From Methyloversatilis sp. (lineage in GTDB: Bacteria; Pseudomonadota; Gammaproteobacteria; Burkholderiales; Rhodocyclaceae), in NCBI RefSeq assembly GCF_030698125.1, contig NZ_JAUYNV010000004.1, forward strand, positions 1-64,000: DNA of 64,000 bases, read 5' to 3'. This document shows positions 35,641-45,521 of the stretch, piece after piece (position 1 is the first letter of the stretch; the number at the start of each line of letters is the position of its first letter). Position numbers and translations under genes: made by a program. Under the pieces are notes generated by a model, which saw nothing but the letters and a program-made list of their open reading frames with translations, did not search any database and had not been told where the DNA came from.

Positions 35641-36129
35641 TCAGAGCCCACGGATTTTCTGCAACAGTGCGCTGGTCGAGCGCTCGTGCTCGAAAGCGAT
35701 CGATTCGACCCGGCCGCCCCACGCCAGCACCTCACGTGCGCCGACGATGCGGTCGATCGGCCAGTCTCCGCCCTTGACCAGCACCTCGGGACGACAGGCA
35801 AGGATGAGATCGAGCGGGGTATCGGCGTCGAACCAGGTGACCAGACTGACTGATTCCAGCGCCGCGATCACGGCTGCGCGATCTTGCAGCGGATTGACCG
35901 GGCGGTCATCGCCTTTGCCCAGCCGGCGCACCGAGTCATCGGAGTTCAGCGCCACGATAAGCGAGCCACCGAGCGCACGCGCCTGTGCCAGGCAGGTCAC
36001 GTGACCGCGATGCAGGATGTCGAAACAGCCGTTGGTGAATACCCGAGATACGGGCAGCTCGGCCGCGCGCGCCGACAGGTCGGCCGGCGCGCACAGTTTG
36101 CCCTCGAAGGCCGGTGTGCCGCCCTCCAT
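35641..36129 (-). CDS. rfaE2: D-glycero-beta-D-manno-heptose 1-phosphate adenylyltransferase
   Basis: 162-aa nucleotidyltransferase that transfers AMP from ATP to heptose 1-phosphate, making the ADP-heptose precursor of the LPS inner core. Motif FTNGCFDILHRGH (HxGH at residues 40-43), ALNSDDSVRRLGKG, and the C-terminal RSTSALLQKI motif. It corresponds to the C-terminal half of E. coli HldE; here it is a separate protein, and a kinase partner is not in the window. Start overlaps the ferritin-like gene stop by 1 nt (TGATG). Confidence 0.94.
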   Translation of the reverse strand: MEGGTPAFEGKLCAPADLSARAAELPVSRVFTNGCFDILHRGHVTCLAQARALGGSLIVALNSDDSVRRLGKGDDRPVNPLQDRAAVIAALESVSLVTWFDADTPLDLILACRPEVLVKGGDWPIDRIVGAREVLAWGGRVESIAFEHERSTSALLQKIRGL

Positions 36130-36959
36130 CAAGCGGTCGTGGCGAACTGCTTGCGGAAGCGGTTCAGGTCGCTGACGGTCTTGAAGCTCTCGCCGAACAG
36201 CGAACCGAGATTGCGCAGGATGCCGCCGATGACGCGCGCTTCGCAATCCTTGTCGAAGCGGATCTGCTGGTCCAGCCAGTGCTCGAGCCAGTCCGGGTCG
36301 GGCAGGCGGGACTGTATCGTGTCGCGCGGATACAGCGCCTTGCTGACGTGCAGGTTGGTCGGATGCAGCGGCTTGCCGGCGCGCCCGCTGGCCGCCATCA
36401 ACATGCCGATCTTGGAAAACGCCGCGCGCGCCGTGTCGCCGGTGCGCTCGATCGCACGCTTCATGTACTTCAGATAGGCGCCACCATGCCGCGCCTCGTC
36501 GCGCGACAGCAGATTGTAGATGTGCTTGATGACCGGCTCGGTGTGCCATTCCGACGCACGGCGATACCACTGGGTCAGCCGCACTTCGCCACAGAAATGC
36601 AGCATCAGCGTTTCAAGCGCCGGTGCCGGATCGAATTCGAAGCGCACCTCGTGCAGTTCCTGCTCGGTCGGCGCCAGGTCGGGCCGGAACCTGCGCAGGT
36701 ACTCGAGCAGTACCAGCGAATGCTTCTGTTCCTCGTAGAACCACACCGACATGAAGGCGCAGAAGTCGGAATCGTCGCGGTTGTCGCGCAGGAACATTTC
36801 GGTTGCCGGCAGCGCGGACCACTCGGTGATGGCATTCATCTTGATGGTCAGCGCCTGTTCGTCCGACAGCAGCGACGCGTCGAAGCCGTCCCAAGGCACG
36901 TCCTTGTCCATGTCCCAGCGGGCGGATTCGAGTGACTTGAACAGTTCAGGGTAGAGCAT
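36129..36959 (-). CDS. ferritin-like diiron protein (acyl-ACP desaturase-like)
   Basis: 276-aa four-helix protein with a full diiron ligand set: Glu46 (AITEWSAL), Glu77 and His80 (EEQKH), Glu125 (GEVRLTQW), Glu155 and His158 (DEARH). The spacing E, ExxH, E, ExxH is that of the ferritin-like oxygenases and acyl-ACP desaturases. Expected cytoplasmic; substrate unknown. GAGGAG precedes the ATG at 36959. It is coupled by a 1-nt overlap to rfaE2, which may be a historical rather than functional link. Confidence 0.85.
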   Translation of the reverse strand: MLYPELFKSLESARWDMDKDVPWDGFDASLLSDEQALTIKMNAITEWSALPATEMFLRDNRDDSDFCAFMSVWFYEEQKHSLVLLEYLRRFRPDLAPTEQELHEVRFEFDPAPALETLMLHFCGEVRLTQWYRRASEWHTEPVIKHIYNLLSRDEARHGGAYLKYMKRAIERTGDTARAAFSKIGMLMAASGRAGKPLHPTNLHVSKALYPRDTIQSRLPDPDWLEHWLDQQIRFDKDCEARVIGGILRNLGSLFGESFKTVSDLNRFRKQFATTA

Positions 36960-37175: not shown

Positions 37176-38126
37176 TCAGTTGAGGGCGGCGATGGACGCA
37201 CCGGGCAGCCGGGCCGCGCGCCACCGCGCCAGCGCGTCGGGCACGCTCCGGATGGCACCAATCACGGATACGCCGGGGATGCCGGCCAGTCGCTCGTGCG
37301 CCCCTGCGCCACCGACCCAGATGTCCACCGTGTCCGGAAGTGATTCACGCAGGGTACGAACGCCGGCGAGTGCCTGGCGCAGCGGATAGGCAGCGCTGAA
37401 GGACAGCGCCACGATGTCGGCCGCCGAGGTGATGGCCGATGTGCGGATGTCGGTCAGCGGCATGCGGGGCCCGAGCGAACAACACTGCGCGCCTTCGGAT
37501 GCAAGCATCACCTCCACCATCAGCAGTCCGAGACCATGTTCCTCTTCCGGCAATGTGGTCAGCAGCACGCGCGGCGGCGTGGCCGGCCGGGTGTAGCTGG
37601 CGAGGGTACCTCGCAGGAAGCTCTGCACCTGCTCGGTGTAGAAGTGTTCTTCCGGCACGCCCAGTTCGCCGCGTAGCCAGGCTTCGCCGATGACCACGTT
37701 GAGGGGCGCGACAAGGTCCGACACCAGCCCCTGCAGACCTCTTTCGAGCAGGCTGCGCTGGAACAGGTTGCGCAGTGCGGGTACATCGTGACGCCGTATC
37801 GCCGCGAGTACGTCTTCCGTCGGTACGCCACCATCCGGCGCGACCGGCCCGCCTGCGCCGCGTTCAGCTTCGATAATCCGCTGTAGTTCCGCCTCGCTGG
37901 CGGCCAGCAGCTTGCCCGGCCGCCACCCTTGATCGAGCAATCTGCGTATCAGGCGCAACCGATTGACGTCGTCAGACGTATACAGACGCTCGCCCGCTTC
38001 ATCGCGAGCAGGCTGGGGGAATCCATAGCGCCTTTCCCACGCGCGCAACGTATCTTTGGGAAGGCCTGTTTCGCGTTCGACGGCGCTGATCGTCATTCGA
38101 GCCAGACCGTTGGCGTCATGTTTCAT
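37176..38126 (-). CDS. MerR-family regulator with B12-binding domain, CarH/LitR type
   Basis: 316 aa. MerR HTH at residues 10-80 (MTISAVERETGLPKDTLRAWERRYG), a helical bundle at about 105-180 and a cobalamin-binding Rossmann domain from about 185. Photoreceptor signatures of adenosylcobalamin-dependent CarH proteins are present: Wx9EH (Trp150, Glu160, His161) and the lower-ligand motif ExHxxG (Glu195, His197, Gly200). From established CarH work, dark AdoCbl-bound protein represses and light releases it; applying that here is inference. A 13-bp palindrome ends 1 nt upstream of its start codon, so it probably represses itself. Divergent from the nine-gene lipid/oxidative stress run. Confidence 0.9.
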   Translation of the reverse strand: MKHDANGLARMTISAVERETGLPKDTLRAWERRYGFPQPARDEAGERLYTSDDVNRLRLIRRLLDQGWRPGKLLAASEAELQRIIEAERGAGGPVAPDGGVPTEDVLAAIRRHDVPALRNLFQRSLLERGLQGLVSDLVAPLNVVIGEAWLRGELGVPEEHFYTEQVQSFLRGTLASYTRPATPPRVLLTTLPEEEHGLGLLMVEVMLASEGAQCCSLGPRMPLTDIRTSAITSAADIVALSFSAAYPLRQALAGVRTLRESLPDTVDIWVGGAGAHERLAGIPGVSVIGAIRSVPDALARWRAARLPGASIAALN

Positions 38127-38127
38127 A

Positions 38128-38140
38128 TTGTCCTGGACAA
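38128..38140. promoter_or_regulatory. operator palindrome 1, TTGTCC-T-GGACAA
   Basis: Perfect 13-bp palindrome one base upstream of the CarH-type start codon, covering its ribosome-site region. Its twin at 38191-38203 lies 63 bp away, about six helical turns. Likely operator for self-repression; the binding protein is inferred. Confidence 0.75.
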
Positions 38141-38144
38141 ACTA

Positions 38145-38173
38145 TTGACACAGCGTTCAATGCACCCTAGATT
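38145..38173 (+). promoter_or_regulatory. sigma-70 promoter of the photo-stress cluster
   Basis: A consensus -35 TTGACA (38145-38150), a 17-bp spacer and -10 TAGATT (38168-38173). It reads toward the small exported protein gene at 38219, with initiation near 38180. Operator 2 covers about +11 to +24, suited to repression. Confidence 0.75.
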
Positions 38174-38190
38174 AAGAACATTAGATCGTT

Positions 38191-38203
38191 TTGTCCAGGA
38201 CAA
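38191..38203. promoter_or_regulatory. operator palindrome 2, TTGTCC-A-GGACAA
   Basis: Same 13-bp palindrome as at 38128-38140, differing only in the central base. It lies just after the predicted start of the rightward transcript and 15 bp before the first gene. Confidence 0.75.
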
Positions 38204-38218
38204 ATTGGGGGGGTAATC

Positions 38219-38491
38219 ATGAAGCACGCTGCTGTAGCGGGTTTGCTATTCGCCGTAACGGGTGCTTTCAGCAGTACATGCAATGCTCGCATGCCGGGCG
38301 CGGACGAACCGTCGGCCACCGCAAATCCGGCGCCGGTTGCGCTGGCTGTGCCAGCAAGAGCCGCGCACAAGGCGACGCCGAACGAAACGCTCATCCACCT
38401 GCATCGCGCGGTGACGGGCATCCACTTCCTGCCGTCGGCGTTTTCCGAAACGACGGTGCGCTGTTGTGAGCCCAGTCGTGCGTCGCGCTGA
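38219..38491 (+). CDS. small exported hypothetical protein
   Basis: 90-aa protein of no known family. N-terminal signal peptide (MKHAAVAGLLFAVTGAFSS), then an Ala/Pro-rich stretch, then HLHRAVTGIHFLPSAFSETTVRCC. It is the first gene after the two palindromes and promoter, with a G-rich ribosome-site region. Its end overlaps the glutathione peroxidase frame by 26 bp, so either its stop or the next start is translated by coupling. Existence as a protein is moderately likely, given its placement and signal peptide. Confidence 0.55.
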   Translation: MKHAAVAGLLFAVTGAFSSTCNARMPGADEPSATANPAPVALAVPARAAHKATPNETLIHLHRAVTGIHFLPSAFSETTVRCCEPSRASR

Positions 38492-39026
38492 CGGGTTTCT
38501 TGCTGCCGTTTTTACCCTGATGACCGGAGTCGCCATGGCCGAAGCCTGCCCGAACCTGCTTGATCGCTCGCTGCCCGGCCTGCTCGACGGCAAGCCGAGA
38601 TCGCTGTGCGAATTCAGCGGTCGCGTGTTGCTTGTCGTCAATACCGCAAGTCGCTGCGGCTTTACCCGGCAGTACGAAGGCCTGGAAAAACTGCAGTCTC
38701 GCTTCGGCGCGCGCGGCCTGACCGTGCTGGGATTTCCGTCAAACGATTTCGGGAATCAGGAGCCGGGCAGCGACAAGGACATCGCAGAGTTCTGCAGCAT
38801 GACCTACGGGGTCAAGTTTCCGATGTTTTCGAAGACTGCCGTGAAGGGTGCGCAGCGGCACCCCTTTTACGCCGACCTCACGCGTCTGACTGGCGTCGAA
38901 CCGGCATGGAATTTCCACAAGTATCTGATCGCGAGAGATGGCAGCACGATCACGGCGTTTCCGAGCAATGTGGCGCCGGAATCGCCCGAAATGATCGCTG
39001 CCATAGAGGCCGCGCTGGCGCGTTGA
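38466..39026 (+). CDS. glutathione peroxidase family protein, exported
   Basis: 186 aa. Thioredoxin-fold peroxidase with the catalytic Cys in NTASRCGFTRQYEGLE, Gln in FGNQEPGS, and Trp and Asn in PAWNFHKYLI, the family tetrad. Unlike the cytoplasmic enzymes it begins with a signal peptide (GFLAAVFTLMTGVAMAEA), so it would act in the periplasm on peroxides, perhaps lipid peroxides. Start is GTG 38466 or GTG 38478, without a clear ribosome site; it overlaps the previous gene by 26 bp. Part of the cluster controlled from 38145. Confidence 0.9.
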   Translation: MSPVVRRADGFLAAVFTLMTGVAMAEACPNLLDRSLPGLLDGKPRSLCEFSGRVLLVVNTASRCGFTRQYEGLEKLQSRFGARGLTVLGFPSNDFGNQEPGSDKDIAEFCSMTYGVKFPMFSKTAVKGAQRHPFYADLTRLTGVEPAWNFHKYLIARDGSTITAFPSNVAPESPEMIAAIEAALAR

Positions 39027-39131
39027 TGTGGATGTCCATTTTCCGTTAATTGGTTGTGTCAATGTAAAGTTACGCTTTGCTTCCGCGTTGTGTTACGGCC
39101 GCATCTCACCCAGGGCGGTTCCAGGAGAGTT

Positions 39132-40415
39132 ATGAGAATTGCAGTCGTGGGTTCCGGAATTTCCGGACTCGCAGCCGCATGGCTGCTGTCGCGCGAACAC
39201 CAGGTCACCCTGTTCGAACAGCACGACCGTCTCGGCGGTCACTCGAACACGCTTGATGTCGAACTGGATGGCGTGCGCCATCCGGTGGACACCGGTTTCA
39301 TCGTATTCAACCGGGCGACCTATCCGCACCTGTGCGGCCTGTTCGCTCATCTGGGCGTGGACATCGCGGACAGCGAAATGAGCTTCGGCGTCAGCCTGCG
39401 CGACTCCGGCATCGAATGGAGCGGCAGCAGCCTCGCCACGGTGTTCGCCCAACCGGCGAATCTCGCCCGGCCAAAGTTCTGGCGGATGTTGCAGGACATC
39501 ATGCGCTTCAACAGCGAAGTGACCGAGCGGGCCGCCAACGGCAGCGCCGAGCACCTGTCGCTCGGTGAGTTTCTGGTGAAGCATCGCTACAGCGAGTCCT
39601 TCCGGGACTGGTATCTGCTGCCGATGGCGGCAGCGATCTGGTCCTGCCCGACCCGTACGATGATGGCCTACCCGCTCGCCACGTTTGCCCGCTTCTGCCA
39701 CAACCACGGATTGCTGCGCGTGAATGACCGACCTCAGTGGCTCACCGTACGCGGTGGTTCGCGTGAGTACGTGAAGAAACTGGCTGCGCTGTTGTCGGAC
39801 GTGCGGCGCGGTGCGGCCGTCACCCGTGTGCGCCGGACCGAAGAGGGCGTGTGGATCGATGCGGAGGGCGCCTCGACCTGCTTCGATCAGGTTGTGATGG
39901 CCAGTCATTCCGATGAGTCACTCGTTCTGCTGGGTGAAGCAGCGACGCCTGCCGAACAGCGGCTGCTTGGCGCCATACGCTACCAGTCCAACCATGCGGT
40001 GTTGCACACGGACACGCAGTTGTTGCCGCGCAACCGGCGCGTCTGGTCAGCGTGGAATTACCTGGCGGGCGAGGGCGCGCCCGACGAGCGGCCAGTCAGC
40101 GTGTCCTACCTGATGAACCGCCTGCAGCCGCTGCCGTTCAGGCACCCTGTCGTGGTGACTCTGAACCCGTTCATCCAGCCCGATCCGGCCAGCGTGATCG
40201 CGCGCATCGAATATGCGCACCCGCTGTTCGATGGCCCGGCGATCGATGCGCAGCAACGGCTGCCCGAAATACAGGGCCGCGACCGCATATGGTTCTGCGG
40301 CGCCTGGACCGGCTACGGTTTTCACGAGGACGGCCTGTCGTCCGCGGTGCGCGTGGCGCGGCAGCTCGGTGCCGACGTGCCCTGGCAACGCAGCGAACCG
40401 GTGCTGGCCGCGTGA
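39132..40415 (+). CDS. FAD-dependent amine-oxidase-family protein
   Basis: 427-aa flavoprotein. FAD-binding GxGxxG motif (VVGSGISGLAAAW) followed by LFEQHDRLGGHSNTLDV, and the C-terminal WFCGAWTGYGFHEDGLSSA that closes the flavin site. Related to carotenoid/phytoene-type and cyclopropane-neighbour oxidoreductases called NAD/FAD-binding protein. Good ribosome site CCAGGAG, 96 bp after the peroxidase gene, so a secondary promoter may exist. Stop overlaps the DUF1365 start by 1 nt. In Rhodobacter, related genes act in furan-fatty-acid synthesis; transfer of that role is inference. Confidence 0.9.
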   Translation: MRIAVVGSGISGLAAAWLLSREHQVTLFEQHDRLGGHSNTLDVELDGVRHPVDTGFIVFNRATYPHLCGLFAHLGVDIADSEMSFGVSLRDSGIEWSGSSLATVFAQPANLARPKFWRMLQDIMRFNSEVTERAANGSAEHLSLGEFLVKHRYSESFRDWYLLPMAAAIWSCPTRTMMAYPLATFARFCHNHGLLRVNDRPQWLTVRGGSREYVKKLAALLSDVRRGAAVTRVRRTEEGVWIDAEGASTCFDQVVMASHSDESLVLLGEAATPAEQRLLGAIRYQSNHAVLHTDTQLLPRNRRVWSAWNYLAGEGAPDERPVSVSYLMNRLQPLPFRHPVVVTLNPFIQPDPASVIARIEYAHPLFDGPAIDAQQRLPEIQGRDRIWFCGAWTGYGFHEDGLSSAVRVARQLGADVPWQRSEPVLAA

Positions 40416-41182
40416 TGATGGCGAGCGACGTCAGCCTGTGCCGCGGCGCAGTCATGCACGAGCGGACCGCACAGGTCCGTCGCCGCTTCGCGTATCAGTT
40501 GTTCTTCATGCGTTTTCGTCTCGACACGCTGGGCAAGTCGAAGATTCCGATGCTTGCACTGAACCGCTGGGCGCCGTTGTCGCTGCACTACCGCGATCAC
40601 GGTGCGCGCGACGGATCGCATCCGCTGCCCTGGATACGCGCATTGCTGGCGCAGGAGGGGCTGGCCGGCGTTGATGGGGAAGTCGTCCTGCAAACCATGC
40701 CGCGGCTGTTCGGTTATGTGTTCAACCCGGTCAGCTTCTGGTTCTGTCACGACGCCGACGGTGCCTTGCGCGCCGTGCTGTGCGAGGTCAGCAACACCTT
40801 CGGCGAACGCCATGCCTACCTCGTGGCGCATGACGACCGCCGCCCCATCCTGAATGGCGAGTGGCTGGAAACACGCAAGGTGTTTCACGTGTCGCCCTTC
40901 TTTCCGGTCAGCGGTTCCTATCGCTTCCGTTTCGATCAGCGCGACACCCAGCATGCGGTCGCGATCGACTACTTCGAAGGCGCAGAACGGCAGTTGCGCA
41001 CGCGTGTCTCGGGGCGCGCCGTGCCGATGAGCCGCGCCGTGGCGTGGCGTGCGCTGGCGGCTTTTCCGCTGATGACGCTGGGTGTGATCGCGCGCATTCA
41101 TATCCAGGCTTTTCACCTGTGGCGGGCGAATGTGCCCTTTTTCAGAAAACCGCCTCCTCCAGTACAGGAATTGACCCGATGA
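40415..41182 (+). CDS. DUF1365 family protein
   Basis: 255 aa. Typical features: RRRFAYQLFFMRFRLDTL near the start, then MPRLFGYVFNPVSFWFCHD and CEVSNTFGERHAYL, with KVFHVSPFFPVSGSYRFRF later. A hydrophobic stretch near residue 215 may contact the membrane. Biochemical role unknown; it is nearly always next to a cyclopropane-fatty-acid-synthase-like gene and an FAD amine oxidase. Start either ATG of the pair at 40415 or 40418; the stop overlaps the next gene by 4 nt (ATGA). Confidence 0.9.
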   Translation: MMASDVSLCRGAVMHERTAQVRRRFAYQLFFMRFRLDTLGKSKIPMLALNRWAPLSLHYRDHGARDGSHPLPWIRALLAQEGLAGVDGEVVLQTMPRLFGYVFNPVSFWFCHDADGALRAVLCEVSNTFGERHAYLVAHDDRRPILNGEWLETRKVFHVSPFFPVSGSYRFRFDQRDTQHAVAIDYFEGAERQLRTRVSGRAVPMSRAVAWRALAAFPLMTLGVIARIHIQAFHLWRANVPFFRKPPPPVQELTR

Positions 41183-42393
41183 ACCAACCGGATGCCCTCA
41201 TCGCGCTTGCGCGACACGGAAAGCTTCCATCGGCCGCGCGCCACGTATTCAAACTGCTCGAACGCATCGAGCACGGCTGGCTGATGATGTCGCTGCCGGA
41301 CGGCGAAATGGTGTCTTTCGGCGGCCGGGGCGAGCCGGTCGAAATGCGCGTTCTCGACTGGGGTGTATTCGACCGCGTGATCGCCCGCGGCGACATCGGT
41401 CTTGGCGAGGCGTGGTTCGACGGACTCTGGGACACCGACGAGCTCGGCCGCGTGCTGACGCTGTTCGCGCAGAACCGCGACGCGCTGCAGCGCGCGGTGC
41501 ACGGCAACCTGCTCGCGCTGGTGTTTGCGCGCATGCGTCATCTCGGCCGCGCGAATACGCGACGTGGCAGCCGCCGCAACATCGTCGCCCACTACGATCT
41601 GGGCAATGAGTTCTACGGTCTGTGGCTGGACGGCAGCATGACCTACTCGAGCGCGCTGTACGAAGGCGATACCCGACGCGATCTGGAAACGGCGCAGCTC
41701 GCCAAGTATCAGCGCATCGCGCGCGTGATGGGACTGTCGGCCGACGACAGCGTGATCGAGATCGGTTGCGGCTGGGGTGGTTTTGCCGAGGTCGCGGCGC
41801 AGCGTGCCGGTGCGCGCGTGCATGGCGTGACCCTGTCTCCCGCACAGCTTGCATGGGCGCGACAGCGCGCCGAGCGCGGCGGCTATGCCGACCGCGCGAC
41901 CTGCGAATTGCGTGATTACCGGGACTTGCGCGGCAAGGCGTCGCACATCGTATCGATCGAAATGCTCGAAGCCGTCGGCGAGCGCTGGTGGCCGACCTAT
42001 TTCGCCAAGCTCGACAGCCTGCTGGCGTCCGGCGGGCAGGCGGTGATCCAGACGATCAGCATCGCCGACGACCTGTTTGCGCGTTACCGTAAAGGCACTG
42101 ACTTCATCCAGCAGCATATTTTCCCGGGCGGCATGCTGCCCTCGCCCAGCGTGTTCGTGCAGCAGGCGGAGAAGGTCGGCTTGCAGGTGCGCGACGACTT
42201 CCGCTTCGGGCTTGATTACGCGCTCACGCTGGCACGCTGGCGCGCCACCTTCGAAGCGCGCACCGACGCCTTGCGCGCGCTGGGTTTCGATCGTCGCTTC
42301 CAGCGGCTGTGGCGCTTCTATCTGGCGTATTGCGAAGCCGGTTTCCGTGCCGGTTCGATCGATGTTCATCAATTTCATCTGGAGAAAACCTGA
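41179..42393 (+). CDS. cyclopropane-fatty-acid-phospholipid-synthase family methyltransferase
   Basis: 404-aa SAM-dependent enzyme acting on unsaturated acyl chains of phospholipids. The SAM motif is VIEIGCGWGGFAEVAA, preceded by NIVAHYDLGNEFYGLWLDGSMTYSSA, the lipid-site pattern of CFA synthases. Then SIEMLEAVGERWWPTYF and QHIFPGGMLPSP. Full length. The product could be a cyclopropane or a methylated/furan precursor fatty acid; sequence alone does not decide. Translationally coupled to DUF1365 upstream and to the chalcone-isomerase-like gene downstream (1-nt overlap). Confidence 0.92.
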   Translation: MNQPDALIALARHGKLPSAARHVFKLLERIEHGWLMMSLPDGEMVSFGGRGEPVEMRVLDWGVFDRVIARGDIGLGEAWFDGLWDTDELGRVLTLFAQNRDALQRAVHGNLLALVFARMRHLGRANTRRGSRRNIVAHYDLGNEFYGLWLDGSMTYSSALYEGDTRRDLETAQLAKYQRIARVMGLSADDSVIEIGCGWGGFAEVAAQRAGARVHGVTLSPAQLAWARQRAERGGYADRATCELRDYRDLRGKASHIVSIEMLEAVGERWWPTYFAKLDSLLASGGQAVIQTISIADDLFARYRKGTDFIQQHIFPGGMLPSPSVFVQQAEKVGLQVRDDFRFGLDYALTLARWRATFEARTDALRALGFDRRFQRLWRFYLAYCEAGFRAGSIDVHQFHLEKT

Positions 42394-42917
42394 TGCGCCG
42401 AATGCTTGCCTTGTTGTTGATGGTCGCCGGCATCGCGTCCGCCCAGCCTCTGGCGGGGGCCGGCGACGTGTTGCCCGACCTGAAACCGCTCGGCAAGGGT
42501 GAAATGCGCTGGTTCGGCTTCAAGCTGTACGACGCCTCGCTGTGGGCCAGCGGCGGCAGCTATTCGCCGGACGGCGGTTTTGCGCTGAGCCTCCGCTACG
42601 CTCGTTCGTTCGAAGGCTACAAGCTGGCCGAAGCCAGCATCGATGAGATCAAGCGCCTGGGCGAACGCGACAAGAAGCTTCTGGCGCGCTGGAAGGACAT
42701 CCTCACTGGCGTATTTCCAGACGTGAAGGAAGGCGATGTGCTGACCGGCGTGAAGATGCCGGACGGCAGCGCACGCTTCTTCCATCAGGGCGTCGAACTG
42801 CCAGCCATCGAAGACAGGGCGTTGTCCGATGCCTTCTTCGCCATCTGGCTTGACGCCCGCACCCGCGAGCCGAAGCTGCGCGCCCGTCTGCTGGCCGAAT
42901 CGCTCCCGTCCAGTTGA
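42393..42917 (+). CDS. chalcone-isomerase-like exported protein
   Basis: 174 aa. Signal peptide (MLALLLMVAGIASAQ), then the chalcone-isomerase-like fold signature MRWFGFKLYDASLWASGG, FALSLRYARSFEGYKLAEASIDEI, and WKDILTGVFPDVKEGDVLTG. Bacterial members do not have flavonoid substrates; several are lipid-associated periplasmic proteins of unknown role. GGAG lies ahead of the ATG, which overlaps the previous stop by 1 nt. Stop overlaps the TTG start of the MFS gene. Confidence 0.88.
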   Translation: MRRMLALLLMVAGIASAQPLAGAGDVLPDLKPLGKGEMRWFGFKLYDASLWASGGSYSPDGGFALSLRYARSFEGYKLAEASIDEIKRLGERDKKLLARWKDILTGVFPDVKEGDVLTGVKMPDGSARFFHQGVELPAIEDRALSDAFFAIWLDARTREPKLRARLLAESLPSS

Positions 42918-44194
42918 GATCGGCCCGCCTGTTTGCCTATGGCGTGCTCGGTGCGCCGCTGGCCGCCGCGGCACTGCCCATCTACGTACACATTCCGAAG
43001 CTGTACGCCGACAGCTTCGGCGTATCGCTGACCGTGCTGGGCATCGTGCTGTTCGCCGCGCGTCTGCTCGACGCGCTGGTCGACCCGCTGATTGGCGCGG
43101 CCAGTGATCGCGCGCGGGGCCGCCGTCGCCTGGTGTGGATGGGCTTGCTGCCGCTGGCGCTCGGGTTGCTTGCGCTGGTGCGTCCGGCCGAAGGCGCCGA
43201 TCCGGTGTTCTGGCTGATCGGTGCGCTGGCACTGGTCTATGCCGGCTACAGCATCAGCACCATCAATTATTACGCCTGGGGCGCCGAACTGTCGGCGACG
43301 CCGGCTCTGGGCACCCGGCTTGTCGCGGTGCGCGAAGGTTGTGCGCTGGTCGGTGTCGTGGCGGCGTCCATCGCGCCGGGCTTGCTGTCGCCGGATGCGG
43401 CACAGGGTCTGTGGCAGGCGGTGCTGTACTGGCTGCCGCTGCTGGCGGTGAGTGCTGTCATCACGCTGTTCGCCGTGCCGGAGGCGAGCCGCGTGCAGCC
43501 GATGGGGCACGAGCCGTTGCGTGCAGTGCTGGGCGAGGTGCTGCGGAACAGGCGCTTCCGTCGCCTGCTCGCGGTGTTTGCGCTCAATGGCATCGCGTCG
43601 GCGATTCCGGCCACCCTGGTGTTGTTCTTCATCGCCGACGTGCTCGGCGCAGCGGAGCGGGAAGGGCTGTTTCTCGCGCTGTACTTCGTCGCCGGCGTGC
43701 TGGCGCTGCCGCTGTGGACGCGCCTGTCGGACCGCTACGGTCGCGCGCGCAGCTGGGCTGCGTCGATGGTGCTCGCGATATCGGTCTTCGCATGGGCGTT
43801 CACGCTCGGCCCGGGTGACGACACGGCCTTCATGCTGATCTGCGCCGCATCGGGCATCGCGCTCGGTGCCGACCTCGCATTGCCGGCGGCGCTGGTGGCG
43901 GGCCTGGTCGGCCGGCGCGATGAGCCGCTGTCGGCTGGCGGCAGCTTCGGCGTGTGGAACTTCGTCACCAAGATGAATCTGGCGCTGGCAGCCGGTCTGG
44001 CGCTACCGCTGCTGGGCGTGCTCGGCTATCAGCCAGGCGCCACCGACGCCGATGCACGACTGGCGCTGGCCGCGGTCTATGGGCTGGTGCCGTTGGCGCT
44101 CAAGGCGGCCGCCTGCGTGCTTCTGTGGCGCCATGCGGACTGGCTGGAACCGGAAGTGGAAACCGAAGCGAATGACGGAGGACTGAAGTCGTGA
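42914..44194 (+). CDS. MFS transporter (GPH-like)
   Basis: 426-aa polytopic permease, about 12 hydrophobic segments. N terminus AYGVLGAPLAAAALPIYVHIP and the loop GAASDRARGRRRLVWMG place it in the major facilitator group close to glycoside-pentoside-hexuronide cation symporters. TTG 42914 overlaps the upstream stop, which suggests translational coupling; no better ATG exists near the beginning. Substrate unknown. Frequent partner of DUF3833 and CFA-like genes. Stop overlaps the GTG of the DUF3833 gene (GTGA). Confidence 0.87.
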   Translation: MRSARLFAYGVLGAPLAAAALPIYVHIPKLYADSFGVSLTVLGIVLFAARLLDALVDPLIGAASDRARGRRRLVWMGLLPLALGLLALVRPAEGADPVFWLIGALALVYAGYSISTINYYAWGAELSATPALGTRLVAVREGCALVGVVAASIAPGLLSPDAAQGLWQAVLYWLPLLAVSAVITLFAVPEASRVQPMGHEPLRAVLGEVLRNRRFRRLLAVFALNGIASAIPATLVLFFIADVLGAAEREGLFLALYFVAGVLALPLWTRLSDRYGRARSWAASMVLAISVFAWAFTLGPGDDTAFMLICAASGIALGADLALPAALVAGLVGRRDEPLSAGGSFGVWNFVTKMNLALAAGLALPLLGVLGYQPGATDADARLALAAVYGLVPLALKAAACVLLWRHADWLEPEVETEANDGGLKS

Positions 44195-44742
44195 GATCGA
44201 TGTTGTGGCGGATGCGGGGCTTCATCGGTGCGCTGTGCGCCGCCGTGCTGGTGGCCGGGTGTGGTGGCGTGGCGGTCGATCGTTATGCAGGGCAGAAGCC
44301 CGCCATGGACCTGCGCACCTACTTCAACGGCACGGTCAATGGCTGGGGCATGTTCCAGGACCGCGGCGGCGAGGTGATCAAGCGCTTCACGGTGCGCATC
44401 GAGGCGCGCTGGGAAGGCGACACCGGCACGCTGGATGAACACTTCTCATGGAGCGACGGCACGACCAGCCGCCGCGTGTGGACCATCAGGGATCTGGGCA
44501 ACGGCCGCTACACCGGCCGTGCCGACGACGTCGTCGGCGAAGCGACCGGCGAGGCAAGCGGCAGTGCGCTGCGCTGGCGGTATGTACTGGCGCTGCCGGT
44601 CGATGGCAGCGTCTACAACGTCGACTTCGACGACTGGATGTACATGATCGACGACAAGGTCATGCTGAACCGTTCGGCGATGAGCAAGTTCGGCATCCAC
44701 CTCGGCGAGGTGACGCTGTCGTTCACCCGCGGCGCGCCCTGA
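44191..44742 (+). CDS. DUF3833 family lipoprotein
   Basis: 183-aa lipoprotein, lipobox LVAGC (Cys24). The conserved core includes MDLRTYFNGTVNGWGMFQDRGG and DEHFSWSDGTTSRRVW, and ends FDDWMYMIDDKVMLNRSAMSKFG. A beta-rich lipocalin-like fold is plausible. Always seen in the CFA/FAD/SDR cluster in proteobacteria; function unknown. GTG start overlaps the MFS stop by 4 nt, and the stop overlaps the SDR start by 1 nt (TGATG). Confidence 0.9.
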   Translation: MRSMLWRMRGFIGALCAAVLVAGCGGVAVDRYAGQKPAMDLRTYFNGTVNGWGMFQDRGGEVIKRFTVRIEARWEGDTGTLDEHFSWSDGTTSRRVWTIRDLGNGRYTGRADDVVGEATGEASGSALRWRYVLALPVDGSVYNVDFDDWMYMIDDKVMLNRSAMSKFGIHLGEVTLSFTRGAP

Positions 44743-45521
44743 TGTTCGCGCCGCTGAATCCGCCGCTGACTGACTGGTCGGGCAAGCGCGTCTGGCTCAT
44801 CGGCGCATCGTCCGGCATCGGCGAAGCGCTGGCGCGCCGGCTGATGGCCGACGGTGCCCGGGTGGCGTTGTCGGCGCGCAGTGCCGACAAGCTCGCGCAA
44901 CTGGGTTCGCTGTCTCCCCTGGCCGTGGTGCTGCCGCTCGACGTGGCCGAACCCGACGCACTCGCGCATGCGGCCGCCACGCTCACCGCACGCTGGGGCG
45001 GCATCGATGCCGTGCTGTTCGTCGCCGCGCGCTATCAGGCGGTGCGCGCCTGGGAGCTGGATCCGGCGGACATCGACGCCACGCTCAACACCAATGTCGC
45101 GGCCGTCATGAAGGGCTGTGCCGCGGTGCTGCCCGGCATGCTCGCCGCGCAGTCGGGTGCGCTGGTCATCCTGTCCAGTGTGGCGGGTTATCGCGGCCTG
45201 CCCAAGGCCATCATCTACGGTGCGACCAAGGCGGCACTGATCAATTTCGCCGAAACGCTCTTCATGGACGTGCGGCCGCGCGGGCTCGGCGTGCATCTGG
45301 TCTGCCCCGGCTTCGTCGAAACGCCGCTGACCGCCCAGAACGATTTCAAGATGCCGGCCCTCATTTCCTCCGACGAAGCGGCGGGGCATATCCTGAACGG
45401 CCTCGCCCGCGGCGAGTTCCACATCCACTTTCCGCACCGCTTCACGCGCTGGCTGCTGCTGCTGCGACTGCTGCCCTACCGGATGTATTTCACCGCCGTG
45501 CGGCGGATGACCGGACTTTGA
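44742..45521 (+). CDS. short-chain dehydrogenase/reductase
   Basis: 259-aa SDR. Cofactor motif LIGASSGIGEALA and the catalytic triad Ser (ILSSVAGY), Tyr and Lys (YGATKAA). The C-terminal stretch RFTRWLLLLRLLPYRMYF is hydrophobic and may associate with membrane. Residue DVRPRGLGVHLVCPGFVETPLT follows the usual PG motif. Last gene of the cluster; substrate unknown, with lipid or aldehyde likely from context. The next gene (membrane protein) faces it on the other strand with 18 bp between stops. Confidence 0.92.
   Translation: MFAPLNPPLTDWSGKRVWLIGASSGIGEALARRLMADGARVALSARSADKLAQLGSLSPLAVVLPLDVAEPDALAHAAATLTARWGGIDAVLFVAARYQAVRAWELDPADIDATLNTNVAAVMKGCAAVLPGMLAAQSGALVILSSVAGYRGLPKAIIYGATKAALINFAETLFMDVRPRGLGVHLVCPGFVETPLTAQNDFKMPALISSDEAAGHILNGLARGEFHIHFPHRFTRWLLLLRLLPYRMYFTAVRRMTGL

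Follow-up and report, generated by a model that had tools for sequence, protein, structure and literature searches.

The element considered here, a CarH/LitR-type regulator gene with a divergent nine-gene operon in a 64,000-nucleotide stretch of DNA (the window) on contig C31 of a 4.20-Mb Methyloversatilis sp. genome, has its closest described counterparts among LitR-family light regulators and in an operon for furan lipids. Class I LitR/CarH proteins (Thermus, Bacillus, Myxococcus) target carotenoid genes. Published CarH operators are built from 11-bp repeats of the form nAnnTnnACAn; Thermus has three of them and Bacillus four, and in Cystobacterineae CarH operators a repeat is described as containing the -35 element (PMC8156234, PMC9304148). 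Class II LitR proteins of Pseudomonas (PplR1, PmlR2) are described as repressors of light-induced genes, including ufaM, an FAD enzyme and a short-chain dehydrogenase (SDR), that act at two places, the first site lying at the -35 box and the second between start site and start codon. In Rhodobacter sphaeroides the operon RSP1091-1087, under ChrR-dependent control, is reported to begin with ufaD and ufaO and to continue with three more genes, with ufaM elsewhere (RSP2144). We take RSP1089-1087 to encode an MFS transporter, a DUF3833 protein and an SDR. UfaM, UfaD and UfaO are reported to make a methyl furan fatty acid from an 18:1 acyl chain; ufaD and ufaO head the R. sphaeroides operon, whose three further genes are described as dispensable for the furan lipid (PMC7380195).

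The window locus shares with class I LitR/CarH the order of domains, the residues of the adenosylcobalamin (AdoCbl) pocket, and, as a partial match, a sigma70-type promoter overlapped by 11-bp-spaced TnnACA elements. It differs in that the regulator faces a putative furan-lipid operon rather than carotenoid genes, lacks the bis-His histidine, has the Gly of GxxH replaced, and has two palindromic operator cores, spaced by 63 or 74 bp in most cases. Class II LitR resembles it in the kind of target gene and in the placing of two sites, and is described as differing in four respects: there is no Rossmann B12 domain, PmlR2 is paired with a LOV protein, the site is TGTACA-N12-TGTACA, and a photolyase gene lies in the pmlR1 region. 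With RSP1091-1087 the locus shares ufaD and ufaO followed by three genes of like size, with CarH-type control proposed in place of ChrR. A further parallel is on plasmid pAZKH of Azoarcus sp. KH32C (AZKH_RS26025-25990), where a gene annotated 'MerR' is divergent from seven genes that match those from the FAD enzyme to the SDR here; two one-mismatch sites are present, 74 bp apart. Unlike that of the window, this locus lacks a peroxidase gene, and no small gene is annotated between its regulator and its FAD gene.

A CarH-type regulator and a furan-lipid operon are two known parts, joined here in a pairing for which no description was found; no account of an AdoCbl-type LitR controlling ufa genes was found among the listed titles and abstracts of open PMC papers. 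The combination is a real, conserved regulatory unit. Probably, a CarH-type repressor and two operators (O1 and O2) switch the furan-lipid operon on in light. Gene content, the operator pair, the link between regulator and operators, and the pocket residues lend computed support, and we infer AdoCbl binding, release by light, repression rather than activation, and a furan product. In the dark, the AdoCbl-loaded regulator would bind O1, whose 11-bp-spaced half-sites extend into the -35 box, and O2, just past the expected start. Binding at both would bridge the promoter and silence the divergent operon and probably the regulator's own gene. Light would break the Co-C bond and release the repressor, allowing transcription. 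The UfaM-, UfaD- and UfaO-like enzymes would then methylate, desaturate and oxygenate the 18:1 chain of a phospholipid, giving a methyl furan fatty acid that may serve as a protective membrane lipid, made alongside glutathione peroxidase.

Regulator, promoter and operators

The regulator consists of a MerR DNA-binding domain, a four-helix B12 cap and a Rossmann B12 domain in that order. This is the layout of class I LitR and not that of class II, in which the Rossmann domain is absent. The Pfam profiles MerR_1 and B12-binding_2 score above cut-off, and the B12-binding (Rossmann) model lies at its cut-off of 32.1 bits (31.9 bits in one scan, 32.2 in another). The best solved relatives are Thermus CarH chains, aligned over nearly the full length (residues 11-298, E 3e-34). 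The protein is 91-93% identical to that of named Methyloversatilis sp. records. A metagenome-assembled genome labelled Bordetella parapertussis (L086, CAMDFL010000049.1) has a 47% identical regulator; the label may be wrong.

Two TTTGTCCNGGACAAA-like palindromes, with starts 63 bp apart, flank a TTGACA-N17-TAGATT promoter between the regulator and the operon. The 13-bp core, TTGTCCNGGACAA, matches the window's genome exactly at O1 and O2 only, both inside one 92-bp gap. A spacer of 17 bp is that of an ordinary sigma70 promoter, and a repressor therefore fits better than a classical MerR activator. The window reads TGGACA-N5-TTGACA, giving two 11-bp-spaced repeats only, within the palindrome, a partial match to the published three or four. 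A search for a wider regulon in the same genome returned, beyond O1 and O2, just one site with one mismatch (C15:4702) and none at the photolyase-family genes. Thirteen off-locus matches in other genomes were inspected. Four (L220, L228, L235, L236) read FVQDN in an open frame that by eye resembles a dTDP-sugar epimerase and are thus taken as coding coincidence; another match (L216) is a predicted site before a lipocalin-like gene.

Conservation and the regulator-operon link

A search of 150 genomes from the window's family found the regulator in 60, counting that of the window itself, and for each of the remaining 59 the surrounding region was retrieved. The sequence upstream of the regulator extends for at least 5 kb in 50 loci and for at least 300 bp in 58. 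In 43 of the 50, ufaD-, ufaO- and ufaM-like genes are divergent within 6 kb, an arrangement beyond chance; the full divergent set is lacking in the other seven (L053, L072, L073, L186, L188, L190, L191). An operator pair, defined as sites with at most three mismatches each and 55-95 bp apart, occurs in 48 of the 58 loci, with spacings of 63 bp (23 loci), 74 (13), 64 (5), 62 (3), and 73, 75, 77 and 86 (one each). The 62-64 and 73-75 classes differ by one 11-bp unit. Parsimony on a quickly built regulator tree gives five switches between them, or two when only well-supported branches are counted. The trinucleotide ACA tends to recur every 11 bp between O1 and the -35 box. In the 62-64 class ACA is found at O1+21 in 16 of 31 loci and at +22 in 5, and in the 73-75 class at +21 in 7 of 15 and at +32 in 10; ACA at O1+10 belongs to the search motif and is not independent. 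Sites with at most two mismatches number 119 in the 58 upstream stretches, and of 149 such sites in 79 loci (59 from the family and 20 from the class; 1.41 Mb in all), 132 fall in the 33 kb that adjoin the regulator. Chance operators were rejected by position, not rarity; 20 dinucleotide shuffles of the 58 stretches contain no such site.

A third operator-like copy (at most three mismatches) is seen ~150-170 bp past O2 in several relatives, such as L050, L055 and L065, and is absent from the window. Of 21 loci with both this copy and a first open reading frame (ORF) past O2, 19 have the copy within the frame of the ORF, where it often encodes V-x-D-K/N.

Regulator and DUF1365 gene occur together in 57 of the 150 genomes, DUF1365 alone in 7, the regulator alone in 3 and neither in 83 (Fisher p 1e-29, ignoring kinship). 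Three genomes offer a natural test of the link: regulator and operon lie far apart on one contig in G018 and G082 and on different contigs in G021, and the distant operon keeps sites in all three (pairs 74 bp apart in G018 and 62 bp in G082, one site in G021). Six of the seven genomes with DUF1365 and no regulator match show no site with at most two mismatches in the stretch that was retrieved. In the seventh (G056) a single site lies where a broken contig ends, and the regulator may simply be missing from the assembly. At L204 (G013) and L207 (G075), rfaE2 and a diiron-like gene still flank ufaD, and regulator and operators are missing together, likely by natural loss. Local control of the operon by the adjoining regulator is likely. 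In two of these seven genomes, both of one genus (L205 in G024, L208 in G085), the ufaD/O/M operon is faced by a ChrR-family anti-sigma gene instead of the CarH-type regulator (scores of 186 and 185 bits against a cut-off of 124.5); in G085 an ECF sigma gene adjoins the anti-sigma gene. The window contains no ChrR match, and its genome has two weak ones (28.8 and 26.5 bits against the same cut-off), which sets the locus apart from an RpoE-ChrR system.

At the level of the class, matches to the regulator were obtained in 61 of 369 searched genomes, and 20 more distant regulators, from 19 of those 61, were examined. Seven of the 20 lie near ufa genes, in varied orientations, and have the Trp, EH and the axial His intact. 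One more near ufa genes, the LitR-like regulator at L171 (G429), has a degenerate B12 pocket in which the Trp, the axial His and the His of EH are replaced.

Light sensing and lipid product

Alignment bears out the two motifs that the first-pass annotation had picked out in the regulator, Wx9EH (Trp150, Glu160, His161) and ExHxxG (Glu195, His197, Gly200), and both are kept in 60 of 60 family regulators. Residues identical in all 60 are G147, W150, E160, H161, E195, H197, G200, G219, P223, S242 and G273. The published light signature used by SignatureFinder comprises GxxW, EH, GxxH and GxxxP (PMC11796333); the window regulator has three of these four elements, with Glu194 in place of the Gly of GxxH.

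Several points weigh against the proposed switch. The NCBIfam CarH equivalog model NF052513 gives the regulator 145.1 bits, below its cut-off of 400. No operator pair was found in 10 of the 58 loci, and the predicted core is a palindrome, not a pure direct repeat. The core is also not rare by itself: a control pattern (the core reversed) has two exact matches in the window's genome against two for the core, and 51 against 87 summed over the 150 genomes. With one mismatch allowed, the control matches 17 places in the window's genome and the core 3. As the control is as frequent as the core in exact form there, the weight rests on site location and not on rarity. In the pocket, position 194 is Asp, Glu or Asn in 55 of the 60 family regulators, the window's included, and Gly in 18 of the 20 from elsewhere in the class. 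Position 151, equivalent to His132 of the bis-His light state in TtCarH, is Leu in the window and His in none of the 60 (3 of 20 at class level), and a TtCarH H132A mutant is described as unable to monomerise (PMC11796333). As to the product, the methyltransferase shows Ser or Ala at EcCfa C139 and Gln at H266 in 54 of 54 loci with a match (79 loci examined). These changes are no proof of a furan pathway, because cotton cyclopropane synthases are reported to carry similar ones (PMC3132707), and the residues do not tell UfaM from cyclopropane synthase.

The histidine after the Trp of Wx9EH is described as present in 'many' CarH homologues (PMC9304148). CtMerR is reported to be light-responsive without it, and its Gly of GxxH to contact cobalamin through the main-chain carbonyl (PMC11796333). 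With CtMerR as the example, the bis-His histidine is not strictly defining for class I LitR, and the window regulator may well be light-sensitive with another photoproduct. Judged from these residues, the photochemistry of the window-family regulators may differ from that of Thermus CarH. The replaced Gly limits the claim to a protein that works like CarH, short of full class membership. The regulator probably works in this way, as a variant of the CarH kind with a response to light that we infer.

The absent histidine and the altered GxxH would also suit a regulator that represses through O1 and O2 without sensing light, a CarA-like or redox- or ROS-responsive form (ROS, reactive oxygen species) that keeps the B12 fold. 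CarA is described as having a B12 motif and working without B12 (PMC8156234), and a Vibrio cholerae MerR protein of the blue-light response has been proposed to act through ROS (PMC5241685). This explanation is nevertheless improbable: the adenosyl-pocket residues, the Trp of Wx9EH among them, do not vary across the 60 family regulators, which is hard to explain without AdoCbl, and CtMerR, SasPcob and AbDPcob are reported to respond to green light without the bis-His histidine. Alternatively, a partner such as a short LOV protein or a CarS-like antirepressor may sense light, with the regulator a mere target, as for class II LitR in Pseudomonas. PmlR2 is described as acting as effector for PmSB-LOV, and ufaM, an FAD enzyme and an SDR are reported from the related pmlR1 region (PMC9758184); the first gene of the window operon, moreover, encodes a small protein without a Pfam match. 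However, class II LitR is described as retaining just the four-helix part of the B12 domain and the window regulator also has the Rossmann part, and the hydrophobic N-terminus of the small protein makes action on a DNA-bound protein less likely. No short LOV gene was found among the 14 window proteins scanned, no genome-wide search having been made. Sensing by such a partner appears very unlikely, and a CarH-like sensor remains the preferred reading.

The first-pass annotation had left the lipid product as unknown; a specific candidate, a methyl furan fatty acid, can now be proposed from the gene content. UfaM-, UfaD- and UfaO-type genes stand together in the operon, as judged by protein family and order. 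Order and sizes also match R. sphaeroides, where RSP1090-1087 encode proteins of 250, 402, 186 and 245 aa against 255, 426, 183 and 259 aa in the window, and UfaM, UfaD and UfaO of R. palustris are reported to yield the same product (PMC7380195). This content and order argue against an operon for a cyclopropane or other modified fatty acid, which is nonetheless suggested by the methyltransferase, a CMAS-family protein whose closest solved relatives are cyclopropane synthases, and by the assignment of the DUF1365 and FAD protein functions through homology. A product other than a furan fatty acid seems rather unlikely.

Genes of the operon and genome context

Features of the regulator-operon region in the window (positions of the whole stretch)
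Feature	Position	Strand	Basis and remarks
CarH/LitR-type MerR regulator, AdoCbl-type B12-binding domain, 316 aa	37176..38126	-	Pfam, structure-relative and alignment searches
Operator O1 (predicted), ATTGTCCTGGACAAA	38127..38141	.	Perfect 13-bp palindrome 38128-38140; adjoins regulator start codon; 3 bp before -35 box
-35 box TTGACA, final 11-bp-spaced TnnACA element	38145..38150	+	Sequence; kept in relatives
-10 box TAGATT, 17 bp from -35 box	38168..38173	+	Sequence; -10-like box at matching place in relatives
Operator O2 (predicted), TTTGTCCAGGACAAA	38190..38204	.	63 bp from O1; 16 bp past -10 box, just downstream of expected transcription start
Small first ORF of the operon (90 aa) with hydrophobic N-terminus and 'LIHLHR' motif	38219..38491	+	ORF list; no Pfam match
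Glutathione peroxidase-family (GSHPx) protein	38466..39026	+	Pfam; true start may be ATG 38520 or 38535
UfaD-like FAD oxidoreductase (Amino_oxidase)	39132..40415	+	Pfam; pathway PMC7380195
UfaO-like DUF1365 protein, 255 aa	40415..41182	+	Pfam; PMC7380195
UfaM-like SAM-dependent fatty acyl methyltransferase (CMAS family)	41179..42393	+	Pfam, structure relatives, alignment
Chalcone isomerase-like protein (Chalcone_3)	42393..42917	+	Pfam
MFS/GPH-type transporter (MFS_2), 426 aa	42914..44194	+	Pfam, NCBIfam
DUF3833 protein, 183 aa	44191..44742	+	Pfam
Short-chain dehydrogenase (adh_short), 259 aa	44742..45521	+	Pfam

The divergent gene set of the first-pass annotation was recovered by Pfam in eight of its members (GSHPx, Amino_oxidase, DUF1365, CMAS, Chalcone_3, MFS_2, DUF3833, adh_short), the ninth being the 90-aa ORF. 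Its overlapping junctions likewise hold, as all six from the FAD gene through the SDR overlap by 1 or 4 nt. In relatives, the N-terminus of the small first-gene ORFs after O2 is often hydrophobic, and a short motif with HR at its end is often shared. A FolE2-type GTP cyclohydrolase gene precedes ufaD in some loci (L068 and L206 by profile; L042, L054, L056, L063, L066 and L071 by eye); folE is described as light-induced in Pseudomonas putida. On the other side, a diiron-like protein (FA_desaturase_2 match) is encoded beside rfaE2 at 36129-36959 (-) in the window and also adjoins the regulator in some relatives.

Other light-related genes lie elsewhere in the genome. A region of contig C15 (62000-101999; L094, L095) carries bchI, bchX, bchZ, bchH, acsF, pufL, pufM, PpsR and a B12-binding protein, along with a crtB-type gene whose best model is below its cut-off. 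The B12-binding protein next to PpsR presumably corresponds to AerR, a name given here by resemblance and returned by no family model; the two are likely other light regulators, situated in this photosynthesis cluster. The earlier statement that the window has no photolyase, ChrR or carotenoid gene stands as regards ChrR and needs a correction at the level of the genome, where photolyase-family and crtB-type genes occur outside the window. Similarly, the suggestion of a sole switch agrees with the single CarH/LitR-family regulator found in the genome and with an operator pair found here only, and is tempered by PpsR and the AerR-like protein. A PduO-type adenosyltransferase is present in the genome, and no CobA-type match was found in it.

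The puf genes of Methyloversatilis have been mentioned before (PMC5017807). Bacteriochlorophyll would generate singlet oxygen and so give the operon a purpose. A tie between the regulator and phototrophy is not supported as a rule. Photo_RC is found in 6 of the 150 family genomes, and the regulator in 5 of those 6 and in 55 of the other 144. As 55 of the 60 regulator-bearing genomes thus lack a reaction-centre match, phototrophy is not required.

There is about an even chance that these regulators form a separate B12-photoreceptor branch without the bis-His photoproduct, directly controlling furan-lipid synthesis in a family that includes phototrophs, with the operator adjusted as single 11-bp repeats are gained or lost, and with ChrR and the regulator replacing each other before the same operon. 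If so, B12-based green-light sensing would have a direct link to a protective membrane lipid instead of carotenoids, and within one family the same lipid operon would be wired either to a sensor of light itself or to one of singlet oxygen. Light alone would then suffice to test how furan fatty acid synthesis is controlled, and the 60 homologous regulators and their operators provide a ready set for testing CarH action without the bis-His histidine.

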